From an uncultured Bacteroidaceae bacterium (GTDB taxonomy: Bacteria; Bacteroidota; Bacteroidia; Bacteroidales; Bacteroidaceae): DNA of 64,000 nt. Location: the NCBI GenBank assembly GCA_905235565.1, contig CAJOLR010000002.1:18005-82004 (forward strand), given 5' to 3'. Below are positions 36,500-42,730 of the stretch, in pieces. How positions within the stretch are numbered: the stretch's first letter is position 1; each line of letters opens with the position of its first letter. The position numbers were made by a program, and so were the translations under genes. The notes beneath the pieces were generated by a model. The model made no database searches and was not told the DNA's origin. It was given only the letters and a program-made list of their open reading frames with translations.

Positions 36500-38011
36500 A
36501 TGGCAGATTCCAGAACAAGAACCCGCAGCACACGCACCAACACCGACGGCATTGTACTCAATCACCTTCAGCCTCAGTCTCTGGAGCTTGAGGAGGCAGT
36601 GATTGGCGCATTGATGATTGAGCAGGATGCATTCCCAAAAGTCAGTGATATAGTCAAGAAGGAGTCATTCTACGATCACCGCCATCAGGTGATTTATGAG
36701 GCTGTGGCCAATCTGTCACTTGGTCAGCGTCCCATTGACATCCTGACTGTGACCGAGCAGCTCAAGAGCAACGGCACGCTTGATGAGGCTGGCGGTCCTC
36801 TTTATGTTACCCAGCTGGCCGGCAAGGTAACTTCATCGGCACATATTGAGTATCACGCCCGTATCATTGCCCAAAAAGCCATGGCGCGCGAGCTTATTAC
36901 ATTTACAAGTGAGATACAGACCGAAGCTTTTGACGATACGACCGATATCTCCGAACTGTTGGGAGAGGCCGAGAACAAGCTGTTCCAGATAGCTCACCGT
37001 AATGTAAAAAAGGATTTTGCATCGATAGACGTGGTGCTTCAGGAGTCTGTAAACCGTATCCGTACCGCTGCACAGCGTGCCGAGGGTATGAGCGGACTGG
37101 CCAGCGGATTCAATGACCTGGACAACATCACTTCCGGTTGGCAGAAATCGGACCTTATTATCCTTGCCGCACGCCCTGCCATGGGTAAGACTGCATTTGC
37201 CCTGTCAATGGCCAAGAACATTGCTGTCAACAATGAGCATCCGGTGGCACTCTTCTCACTTGAAATGAGCAATGTCCAGTTGGTAAACCGCTTGATTTCC
37301 AGCGTATGTGAGATACCGGGCAATAAACTTCGTGACGGTCGTCTTGCCCCTTATGAGTGGAGTATTCTGGACAGTAAGATAAATGCCCTGCAGAGCGCAC
37401 CTATTTATCTTGATGATACGCCTTCGTTGTCCATTACTGAATTCCGGACCAAGGCTATACGCCTTAAGCAGGAGCATCAGGTTGAACTTATAATAATAGA
37501 CTATCTGCAGCTTATGAACGCCAGCGGAATCCGGTTCGGAAACCGTCAGGAGGAGATAAGCACCATATCGCGTAACCTCAAGGGTATTGCCAAGGAACTG
37601 GATATCCCTATCATAGCCCTGTCTCAGCTGAACCGTGGCGTTGAGGGCCGAGAGGGCTATGAGGGTAAGCGTCCGCAGCTGAGTGACCTGCGTGAGTCCG
37701 GTGCCATTGAGCAGGATGCCGATATAGTTTGCTTCATCCATCGCCCGGAGTACTACAAGATCTATGAGGACAACAACCACAATGACCTGCACGGCATAGC
37801 CGAGATCATCATCGCCAAGCACCGTAACGGCGGAGTGGGTGATGTACGTCTGTCATTCCGCAGCGACCTGGCACTCTTTGATAACATCGGCACCGGGGAG
37901 TCTGTAGCCGGAGGCCGCAAGGGCAGTGTCAAACGTTCCAAAATGAATGACGAACCCATTCCCGCCGATCCGCTTGATTCCGCCCCCGACATGGGTGACG
38001 CTCCCTTCTGA
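36500..38011 (+). CDS. dnaB: Replicative DNA helicase DnaB
   Basis: LEEAVIGALMIE, ARPAMGKTAFALSMA (Walker A), LIIIDYLQLM, LSQLNRGVEGR. Confidence 0.97.
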   Translation: MADSRTRTRSTRTNTDGIVLNHLQPQSLELEEAVIGALMIEQDAFPKVSDIVKKESFYDHRHQVIYEAVANLSLGQRPIDILTVTEQLKSNGTLDEAGGPLYVTQLAGKVTSSAHIEYHARIIAQKAMARELITFTSEIQTEAFDDTTDISELLGEAENKLFQIAHRNVKKDFASIDVVLQESVNRIRTAAQRAEGMSGLASGFNDLDNITSGWQKSDLIILAARPAMGKTAFALSMAKNIAVNNEHPVALFSLEMSNVQLVNRLISSVCEIPGNKLRDGRLAPYEWSILDSKINALQSAPIYLDDTPSLSITEFRTKAIRLKQEHQVELIIIDYLQLMNASGIRFGNRQEEISTISRNLKGIAKELDIPIIALSQLNRGVEGREGYEGKRPQLSDLRESGAIEQDADIVCFIHRPEYYKIYEDNNHNDLHGIAEIIIAKHRNGGVGDVRLSFRSDLALFDNIGTGESVAGGRKGSVKRSKMNDEPIPADPLDSAPDMGDAPF

Positions 38012-38013
38012 CG

Positions 38014-38178
38014 GAGCCGGTTCCTCCCGTGTAAATTTTGGGGCATAGGTATAGGAAACCATAGCCGCCCGTGGGTTTGTGAACGGGAGGGGCCCGCTCC
38101 GAAGGAGTGGGAGGGATAGCGCGAAGCGCGTAGTTTCAGATACCTATGCCCCAAAATTTACACGGGAGGAATCGGCTC
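38014..38178. repeat. 165-bp palindromic element with 39-nt terminal inverted arms and internal small hairpins
   Basis: Left arm 38014-38052 gagccggttcctcccgtgtaaattttggggcataggtat, right arm 38140-38178 atacctatgccccaaaatttacacgggaggaatcggctc; 38/39 complementary. Confidence 0.95.
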
Positions 38179-38228: not shown

Positions 38229-40724
38229 ATGAACGTTTCATATAAGTGGCTCAAGGAGTATGTTGACTTTGATCTGACCCCTGATGAGGTGGCTGCAGCC
38301 CTTACATCGGTAGGTCTCGAGGTCGATGGAGTAGAGGAGGTTCAGTCTGTCAAGGGCGGACTCAAGGATATTGTTGTAGGTGAGGTCCTCACATGCGTGG
38401 AGCATCCCAATTCGGACCATCTGCATGTAACCACTGTCAACCAGGGCAGTGGCGATCCCGTGCAGATAGTATGCGGTGCACCCAATGTGGCAGCAGGCCA
38501 GAAGGTGGTGGTGGCAACCCTGGGCGCCAAGATTTATGAGGGCGACGAGAGCTTTACCATCAAGCCTTCAAAACTGCGTGGCGTAGAGTCTCAGGGCATG
38601 CTCTGCTCCGAGAAGGAACTGGGCCTGGGCAATGACCACTCCGGTATCATGGTACTTCCGGCCGAAGCCGTTCCCGGCACTCCCGCTGCCGAGTATTTCC
38701 ATCTGGAGTCTGATTACGTGATTGAGGTGGACATAACTCCCAATCACTCCGATGCCTGCTCACACTGGGGCGTTGCCCGCGACTTCTATGCATGGCTGCT
38801 TCAGAACGGTTACAAGACAGCTCTGCATCGTCCCGATGTGGATGGATTCAAGGTTGATAACCATGACCTGCAGATAGAAATTGACGTTCAGAACACCGAG
38901 GCTTGCCCGCGTTATGCCGGCGTAAGCATCAAGGGTGTGACAGTAAAGGAGAGTCCTGACTGGCTCAAGAACAAGCTCTCCACCATAGGGCTGCACCCCA
39001 TCAACAATATTGTAGATATCACAAACTACATACTTTTTGCATACGGTCAGCCGCTGCACAGCTTTGACGCCGATAAGATCAAGGGTGGCAAGGTGGTTGT
39101 CAAGACCATGCCCGGTGGTACTCCTTTTGTAACCCTGGACGGCGTGGAGCGCAAGCTTTCGGAGCGTGACCTGATGATATGCAACGTGGAGGAGCCCATG
39201 TGCATGGGCGGCGTGTTCGGCGGTCTGGATTCGGGCATATCGGACTCAACCGTGAATGTGTTCTTAGAGAGCGCATACTTCCATCCCACATGGATCCGCA
39301 AGAGCGCCCGCCGTCATCAGCTCAGCACCGATGCATCGTTCCGCTTTGAGCGCGGCATTGACCCCAACGGCACCATCTATGCACTCAAGCAGGCTGCAAT
39401 GATGGTCAAGGAACTGGCAGGCGGTACCATATCAATGGATATCAAGGATGTTTATCCTTCCAGGATAGAGAACTTCAAGATAGACTTTGAGTTTGACTAC
39501 GCAGACCGTCTTATCGGCAAGCAGCTTGACCGTATGGTCATGAAAAGCATTGTTGAGAACCTGGGTATTACAGTTGAGTCTTTCGATAAAAAATCGGGAA
39601 TGAAGCTCTCCGTTCCTCCATTCCGCGTGGATGTACAGCATCAGTGCGATGTGGTGGAGGAGATACTCCGTATCTATGGCTACAACAATATAGATTTTGA
39701 CAAGTCAGTCAAGGCAAGTCTTACCGTTCAGGGTGATGTGGACCGCTCACACAAGTTGCAGGACCTTGTGTCCGAGCAGTTGGTAGGCTGCGGATTCAAC
39801 GAGATTCTCAATAATTCACTTACCCGTGCCGCCTATTATGACGGTCTGGATTGCTGCCCGCCGCAGAAACTGGTGCATGTGATAAACCCGCTCAGTGCCG
39901 ATCTCAACGTGCTGCGTGAAAACCTGATATTCGGTGGTCTGGAGAGTCTTTCCCATAATATCCGCCGTCAGAGTTCCGACCTCAGGTTCTTTGAGTTCGG
40001 CAAGTGCTACTACTTTGATGCCGCCAAGCGTGAGGCACTCAAGGAGCCTGGCAAGGACGGCGAGCCTCAGAACCCGCTCCGCGCATACTCCGAGGACTAT
40101 CGCCTGGGTCTGTGGATTACCGGTAAGCGTGTATCGGGCTCATGGGCACATGCCGATGAGGAGAACTCGATATATGAGATAAAGGCTCACGTACAGAATA
40201 TATTCCTGCGTGTGGGTCTGGCACAGAGCGCCATTCAGATTGAGGAGTTTGAGAATTCCGTATTCAGCACTGCCCTGCGTTACAAACTGCGCTCGGGCAA
40301 GACCGTTGCAGAGCTTGGTGTTGTAAGCCGCTCAATGCTCAAACTTACCGATATTGACCAGCCGGTTTATTATGCCGATATCAACTGGGACGAACTGCTC
40401 AAGGCTACCCGCAAGAACAAGGTAAGTTATGCCGAACTGCCCAAGTATCCGGCTGTCCGCCGTGACCTGGCCCTGCTCATAGACAAGGGCGTCAAGTTTG
40501 CCGATATAGAGAAACTGGCTTATCAGACAGAGAATAAACTGCTCAAGGAGGTTACCCTGTTTGACGTATATGAGGGTAAGAACCTGCCTGCAGGCAAGAA
40601 GAGTTACGCCGTAAGTTTCCTGCTTCAGGATGAGAGCCAGACACTCAACGATGTCCAGATAGATAAGGTGATGAACAAGCTTATCCAGACTGTTCAGACC
40701 AAACTGGATGCACAACTCCGTTAA
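38229..40724 (+). CDS. pheT: Phenylalanine--tRNA ligase beta subunit
   Basis: MNVSYKWLKEYVDFDLTPDEVAAALTSVGLEVDGVE, EVDITPNHSDACSHWGVARD, full length with C-terminal anticodon-binding domain. Confidence 0.97.
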   Translation: MNVSYKWLKEYVDFDLTPDEVAAALTSVGLEVDGVEEVQSVKGGLKDIVVGEVLTCVEHPNSDHLHVTTVNQGSGDPVQIVCGAPNVAAGQKVVVATLGAKIYEGDESFTIKPSKLRGVESQGMLCSEKELGLGNDHSGIMVLPAEAVPGTPAAEYFHLESDYVIEVDITPNHSDACSHWGVARDFYAWLLQNGYKTALHRPDVDGFKVDNHDLQIEIDVQNTEACPRYAGVSIKGVTVKESPDWLKNKLSTIGLHPINNIVDITNYILFAYGQPLHSFDADKIKGGKVVVKTMPGGTPFVTLDGVERKLSERDLMICNVEEPMCMGGVFGGLDSGISDSTVNVFLESAYFHPTWIRKSARRHQLSTDASFRFERGIDPNGTIYALKQAAMMVKELAGGTISMDIKDVYPSRIENFKIDFEFDYADRLIGKQLDRMVMKSIVENLGITVESFDKKSGMKLSVPPFRVDVQHQCDVVEEILRIYGYNNIDFDKSVKASLTVQGDVDRSHKLQDLVSEQLVGCGFNEILNNSLTRAAYYDGLDCCPPQKLVHVINPLSADLNVLRENLIFGGLESLSHNIRRQSSDLRFFEFGKCYYFDAAKREALKEPGKDGEPQNPLRAYSEDYRLGLWITGKRVSGSWAHADEENSIYEIKAHVQNIFLRVGLAQSAIQIEEFENSVFSTALRYKLRSGKTVAELGVVSRSMLKLTDIDQPVYYADINWDELLKATRKNKVSYAELPKYPAVRRDLALLIDKGVKFADIEKLAYQTENKLLKEVTLFDVYEGKNLPAGKKSYAVSFLLQDESQTLNDVQIDKVMNKLIQTVQTKLDAQLR

Positions 40725-42437: not shown

Positions 42438-42635
42438 ATGAATGAAATGGTAGGCGAATTCGCCGGTTTGATCTGGCGCGCGCTGGAGGGTAAGAACGCC
42501 CTTTCACAGAAGGAAATTAAAAAGGCTACAAAACTGAAAGACAAAGAGTTTTATCTTGGACTGGGCTGGTTGCTCCGTGAAGACAAAATCAACGTTACAG
42601 AGGGTGAGGAGGAAAATTACTACGCTCTGAAGTAA
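42438..42635 (+). CDS. Small winged-helix protein (DUF2582-like)
   Basis: MNEMVGEFAGLIWRALEGKNALSQKEIKKATKLKDKEFYLGLGWLLREDKI. Confidence 0.85.
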   Translation: MNEMVGEFAGLIWRALEGKNALSQKEIKKATKLKDKEFYLGLGWLLREDKINVTEGEEENYYALK

Positions 42636-42654
42636 TAACCTTTTCAAATTGAAT

Positions 42655-42691
42655 AAAAGAGCCGGAAGCATTATTAGCTTTCGGCTCTTTT
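42655..42691. terminator. Rho-independent-type terminator
   Basis: aaaagagccggaagc-attatta-gctttcggctctttt stem-loop with flanking A/T tracts. Confidence 0.85.
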
Positions 42692-42693
42692 GT

Positions 42694-42701
42694 TATCTTT
42701 G
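42694..42701 (+). promoter_or_regulatory. -7 box TATCTTTG upstream of uxuA
   Basis: TAnnTTTG 29 nt upstream of ATG 42731. Confidence 0.55.
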
Positions 42702-42730
42702 CAATCAGTATTAAATAACCAAAGAATAAT

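Follow-up and report, generated by a model that had tools for sequence, protein, structure and literature searches.

Small mobile repeats of bacteria are normally defined by conserved ends. Several described systems resemble the element considered here, a large palindrome located between dnaB and pheT in the genome of an uncultured Bacteroidaceae bacterium. With MITEs, it shares inverted repeats, the absence of an ORF and the occurrence of empty sites. However, its terminal repeats are unconserved, no target duplication was recognised at the sites compared and its core is structured and strand-specific. Like intrinsic (Rho-independent) terminators, it immediately follows a stop codon and precedes a T-run, and in relatives such a terminator stands in its place, but it is far larger, apparently mobile, probably orientation-independent and endowed with a conserved core.

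Closer likenesses are found among repeats of other bacteria. The BOX elements of Streptococcus pneumoniae are likewise small, multicopy, modular, folded, non-autonomous and intergenic, and insert into each other (PMC3049150). In contrast with BOX, the present core has a covarying pseudoknot, the arms are unconserved, the taxa are unrelated and no insertion sequence with shared ends was found here among the candidates tested (Y1, IS110, reverse transcriptase) (PMC3049150). The REP/BIME/REPIN and TIR-type (RAYT/TIRYT) repeats are also palindromes downstream of genes, in tandem or convergent gaps, and GGGGACAG/GGGACGGTTC palindromes resembling the RAYT/TIRYT terminal repeats surround some of the present copies (PMC3733652). 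However, core and arms together measure ~125 nt here, versus a hairpin of 20-40 nt for REP, and the present element shows no dependence on Y1 and conserves its core, not its arms (PMC3733652). Finally, palindromic candidate structured RNAs from Bacteroidetes of the human microbiome are long palindromes of ~80-130 bp, many of them predicted terminators (PMC8040213). Pseudoknots are not mentioned in the main text of that study, and the likeness is judged by description, not by sequence (PMC8040213). A literature search by topic and by sequence word returned no description of the element, and the combination of a conserved knotted core with arms that change from copy to copy was not found described there. 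The family would belong with the small non-autonomous palindromic mobile elements, and there is a real chance that it forms a class of its own.

The palindrome between dnaB and pheT

The window, that is the whole stretch of DNA analysed, measures 64,000 nucleotides. The gene names are taken from the first-pass annotation and from the translated sequences. The features of the locus are the following.

36500-38011, + strand: dnaB, the upstream gene, with its stop 2 nt 5' of the element
38014-38178, + strand (set by the conserved core): the whole palindromic element
38014-38033, + strand: outer 5' arm GAGCCGGTTCCTCCCGTGTA, akin to the GGGACGGTTC palindromes outside other copies
38034-38052, + strand: inner 5' arm (P1), pairing with 38140-38158; it varies among copies with complementarity kept
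38055-38059, + strand: P2 5' strand GAAAC, pairing with 38133-38137; it covaries to ACGG/CCGT-type in other genomes
38063-38066, + strand: pseudoknot strand AGCC, pairing with GGTT (38074-38077) in the P3 loop
38068-38087, + strand: P3 hairpin CCCGT ... ACGGG, whose loop contains the pseudoknot partner; elsewhere it hosts a nested insertion of ~74-76 nt
38093-38111, + strand: P4 hairpin CCCGCTCC-GAA-GGAGTGGG, in which one G-U pair is nearly invariant
38119-38129, + strand: P5 hairpin GCGC-GAA-GCGC, missing in the G299 copies and in some G396 copies
38133-38137, + strand: P2 3' strand GTTTC
38140-38178, + strand: 3' arm
38229-40724, + strand: pheT, the downstream gene

The first-pass annotation had described a near-perfect palindrome starting 2 nt past the dnaB stop, with three small hairpins in its centre and a T-run plus the pheT -7 box downstream. 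This description holds in all its parts. Of the 39 positions of the arms (38014-38052 and 38140-38178), 38 are complementary and the remaining one is a G-T (G-U) pair. When extended, the arms reach 46 nt, at 93% (38014-38059 and 38133-38178, spacing 73 nt). The dnaB stop codon, TGA, occupies 38009-38011, and the T-run and TAACTTTG box precede the pheT start at 38229. At its spacing, no other inverted repeat of the window comes close to the palindrome in strength. Another strong inverted repeat, with 37-nt arms (73%) and a 7-nt loop, is found at 42633-42713. The computed RNA fold of the element reaches -115.3 kcal/mol, as compared to -66.0 +/- 4.6 kcal/mol for shuffled sequences (z -10.7), and its DNA fold gives a z of -11.4 versus shuffles.

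From the outside to the inside, the P1 arms are followed by P2, the pseudoknot strand, P3, AGGGG, P4, AGGGAT, P5, GTA, and the closing strands of P2 and P1. The AGGGG and AGGGAT linkers, located between P3 and P4 and between P4 and P5, respectively, are almost invariant. The loop of P3 pairs back with the preceding pseudoknot strand, thereby forming an H-type pseudoknot. In some copies, the tip of P4 is lengthened by ~55-60 nt.

Covariation of the core and freedom of the arms

The first-pass annotation had proposed that compensatory changes would support an RNA function. Such changes were observed, within one consistent secondary structure. With 25 aligned copies, 94.7% of the cells pair, double changes occur in 31 of the 45 pairs, and the covariation score is 0.433, versus 0.126 when shuffled and at most 0.086 when slid. 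With 37 diverse cores, the score rises to 0.587 (0.161 when shuffled) and the paired cells amount to 93% (69% when shuffled); because of kinship, the rows are not independent and the shuffle counts, here and for the pseudoknot, are not probabilities. The pseudoknot taken alone is fully paired in 107 of 116 copies. Its distinct combinations are fully paired in 41 cases out of 50, where 2000 shuffles gave a mean of 11 and a maximum of 21, some pairings being displaced by one position, a shift also permitted in the shuffles. The partner strands comprise AGCC/GGCU, AGAC/GUCU, CGAC/GUCG, CGCC/GGCG, CUGC/GCAG and GGCC/GGCC, among others. No Rfam family matched the element, at either gathering or permissive thresholds. 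The core fold is backed by comparison, and it may act as an RNA or as single-stranded DNA.

The ratio of G-U to A-C combinations is 141:1 in the core, mostly from one invariant pair. In the outer arms, it is 88:28 in the model alignment, which is biased toward G-U and calls for caution in strand inference, and 90:51 without gaps. The excess of G-U over A-C in both core and arms points to one strand being the folded one.

The arms follow a different rule. Within a copy, the 5' arm matches the reverse-complemented 3' arm at 87% (103 copies), whereas the 5' arms of two random copies are 37% identical and the cores ~80% similar. In 43 pairs of copies, the cores are more than 96% alike, yet the arms less than 50%. 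As the arms are mostly unrelated between copies while the core is kept, the ends cannot serve to define the element. Maintenance of arm complementarity could result either from selection for pairing or from repair, template switching or conversion between the arms. At several orthologous sites, the element is found in opposite orientations, as would be expected if the arms recombine.

Copies, empty sites and gene context

In its own genome (G000, 2.2 Mb), the element gives 25 BLAST matches, corresponding to ~17 copies or remnants spread over a dozen contigs, and matches are present in 29 of the 37 genomes of the genus, with up to 35 BLAST match pieces per sister genome. A single-copy sequence devoid of covariation, the outcome that the first-pass annotation had named as adverse to its proposal, is contradicted by these copies and by their compensatory changes. 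Covariance searches extended the survey: model R1 detected the element in 16 of 251 genomes of the family (15 from the same genus and one from another), and model R2, built from the 37 diverse cores, in 5 of 344 genomes of the order, its own included, with four other families represented, all these counts being lower bounds given the strict filters used. The carriers from other families (G299, G396, G447 and G477) are multicopy, with 3-8 matches each. Under the same filters, R2 found no copies in the rest of the phylum sample (345 genomes). When named genomes were scanned with a pattern, at least 114 places were revealed, and those listed all belong to uncultured Bacteroidales MAGs, mostly from rumen and gut. 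No copy was found in the phages, plasmids and viral contigs searched, where 15-mer matches in viral contigs were discarded as incompatible with the model. In several draft genomes, the elements coincide with broken contig ends.

The gap between dnaB and pheT was read in 30 genomes of the genus. This copy occurs only in G000 and G025, the latter with an additional nested insert. G026 has another subtype, inverted, G007 a GGGACGGTTCC palindrome, several other genomes a AATTGAGAATT palindrome, and many relatives an ordinary terminator, GTCAGCAGATT...CTGCTGACTTTTTT. In G029, G035, G030 and G028 (L226, L231, L232 and L235, respectively), the gap contains a different palindrome family with AATTGAGAATTGAGAATT repeats, indicating that hairpins are recurrently gained there. 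At other loci, orthologous sites were found both occupied and empty. The site of the C7 copy is empty in G025, with flanks 93-96% identical, and the insertion begins right after the stop codon. The site of the C49 copy is empty in G012, and that of the C52 copy in G019, G027 and G033. At the empty sites compared, where species-level divergence blurs the edges, no target duplication was recognisable. The empty sites and the scattered copies argue that the element would be mobile, and this reading is well supported.

Copies with two flanking genes are located in 53 tandem, 39 convergent and 7 divergent gaps, versus 103, 42 and 55 for other gaps, according to ORF-based, approximate gene calls. 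After collapsing to sites (39, 27 and 7, respectively), the contrast between convergent and divergent gaps holds (p 3e-4). The stop codon preceding a copy in a tandem gap is mostly 45 nt away or less, and the core runs with the genes in 26 cases and against them in 27. This context, combined with random orientation, is the pattern expected of a symmetric terminator-like insertion. Moreover, the equal frequency of both orientations argues that it is the element, and not the host gene, that benefits from the strand-specific conservation seen in the core. Concerning termination itself, a hairpin and a T-run are present, but the T-run is ~10 nt past the foot of the stem, and no simple hairpin-plus-T terminator was detected in the element by a scan whose limit on loop size leaves out hairpins of these dimensions. 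At dnaB, the symmetric arms probably terminate transcription whatever the orientation. A terminator or insulator role would fit the location of the sites behind stops and the replacement of ordinary terminators.

Other elements accompany the family. A nested insert of ~74-76 nt, CCGACGAACGAAGAGAGAGTAGAG...GAGGAGGAGGTC with a variable small hairpin, was observed in L155:6188-6388, L225, L038, L045 and L022, always at one point of a P3 strand, between GTGAA and CGGG, with a possible duplication of AA. As it is present or absent between orthologous copies of sister genomes (L155 versus L049; L225 versus L220), this insert is probably a separate site-specific element. Another multicopy structured element, of ~230-300 nt, has a core ...GACCCTAAACGNCGAACTC...CGCCGTTCTTAACGGGATC... 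and its own variable complementary arms. This second core type was seen at L021:860-1135 (G000 C14), L304 (G025), L193, L308, L155:5976, L182:5198, L173:4648, L137:3081, L189 and L138:7555, and the two copies scanned had no Rfam match. At one site (L304 versus L009), it lies within the same arms that hold the present element in a sister genome. In G299, five copies (L254, L259, L264, L268 and L272) share the element together with ~70 nt containing an extra hairpin, AAAGAGAGTGACTCC...GGGTCACTCTCTTT, which suggests a unit equipped with its own terminator. In several of these cases, the contig ends within the element. A long repeat had been suspected in this genome but was rejected, the shared stretch being only ~140 nt.

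Possible origins and mode of movement

We favour, with a probability of about 0.7, the view that the element is one of a family of ~120-200 bp non-autonomous mobile elements with a conserved folded core and free self-complementary arms. The strand-specific core, comprising the H-type pseudoknot, P4 and usually P5, and closed by P2, would be held by the long arms, whose sequence would be free provided that pairing is kept. A factor, probably a protein supplied in trans, would recognise the folded core, in RNA or in single-stranded DNA form, and the recognised core would be copied into hairpin-rich 3' intergenic sites. Once inserted, the arms would form a strong terminator in either orientation, which would make such sites tolerant. 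At dnaB-pheT, the element would have replaced the ordinary terminator of the relatives.

Several other origins may be envisaged. Dispersed independent small RNAs, regulatory or decoy, might have spread by duplication and been kept for a transcript useful to the host. Strand-specific covariation, the G-U preference and the pseudoknot would suit such RNAs, but sister species differ widely, some having none detected and others dozens of match pieces (some genomes being incomplete), orientation and neighbours are random and no Rfam family is recognised, so that we consider this origin unlikely. It is quite unlikely that the element is a REP/REPIN or TIR-type repeat mobilised by a single-strand transposase of the Y1 (RAYT/TIRYT) type, even though 37 of 125 copies have, on their outside, a GGGACGGTTC motif or one like GGGGACAG, and 24 of 123 copies, as against 4.5 expected, have a 5' tag, CTAAGTGAGC, next to the foot of the hairpin. 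A single Y1 (RAYT-type) gene was found in G000 (L026:1316-2345, at C6:44220). It has AACACATTGGGGACGGTTCTC palindromes on both sides, a motif that also wraps some of the present elements; this arrangement recalls the terminal repeats, GGGGWSAS, that have been described for genes of RAYT type (PMC3733652). However, the outer motif is missing from 88 of the 125 copies, and Y1 genes are absent from G007 (97% complete, many copies) and from the copy-bearing G447, G396, G477, G299 and G186 (89-99% complete). No core lies within ~1.5 kb of the Y1 genes examined, and none of these is flanked by the element itself. Nor does the unit, of ~125 nt or more, correspond to the REP hairpin of 20-40 nt with a 5' GTAG or CGTC, the GTAG of the core being located 3' of P5, not 5'. 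An ordinary MITE, meaning a deleted insertion sequence whose terminal inverted repeats are bound by a double-strand DNA transposase from another locus, would account for a short, non-coding, palindromic and multicopy sequence with empty sites. Nevertheless, terminal repeats that match within a copy (87%) do not match among copies (37%), and arm and tip sequences diverge even between copies with nearly identical cores. Sequence-based recognition of these ends by a transposase is thus hardly possible. Together with the lack of a clean target duplication and a covarying pseudoknot that a dead spacer would not keep, this makes a MITE improbable.

A retro-element moved by a reverse transcriptase, or an RNA-guided element moved by IS110, would make good use of a structured core. 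Reverse transcriptase was found in none of the eight carriers tested (G000, G007, G009, G447, G396, G477, G299 and G186) and IS110, among the copy-bearing genomes tested, in G000 only, so that this origin appears highly improbable. As to a giant terminator or insulator of dnaB built by the host without any mobility, the distance of 2 nt from the stop and the T-run behind would agree with it, but copies occur at unrelated loci and most relatives lack the element at this site, which leaves it scarcely credible. More generally, Y1/RAYT, reverse transcriptase and IS110 were rejected as mobilisers because each is absent from several near-complete carriers; they are unlikely candidates, absence from drafts not being a proof. 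Among the loci examined, no autonomous form, in which an ORF would separate the two halves of the core, came to light. The first-pass proposal of a MITE/REP-type element or a structured RNA is therefore upheld for multiplicity, apparent mobility and a structure with compensatory changes. It does not hold for MITE or REP identity in the defining sense, in view of the unconserved arms, the lack of a clean target duplication and the lack of association with Y1/RAYT, a transposase that is neither needed nor found nearby.

Coming back to the mobile family with a folded core, its free ends together with the retained, covarying central pseudoknot point to an unfamiliar mode of movement, by recognition of a fold, and to a novel enzyme. 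It is tempting to go further and to imagine, in Bacteroidales, a hitherto undescribed class of structured RNA or single-stranded DNA that moves by fold recognition, writes or accepts any self-complementary arms and includes at least two unrelated core types, built on one plan and able to occupy the same arms; we regard this extension as tentative, its chances being somewhat below even. For the biology of uncultured rumen and gut Bacteroidales, the elements are common residents that settle at the ends of genes, where they probably set the points at which transcription stops.
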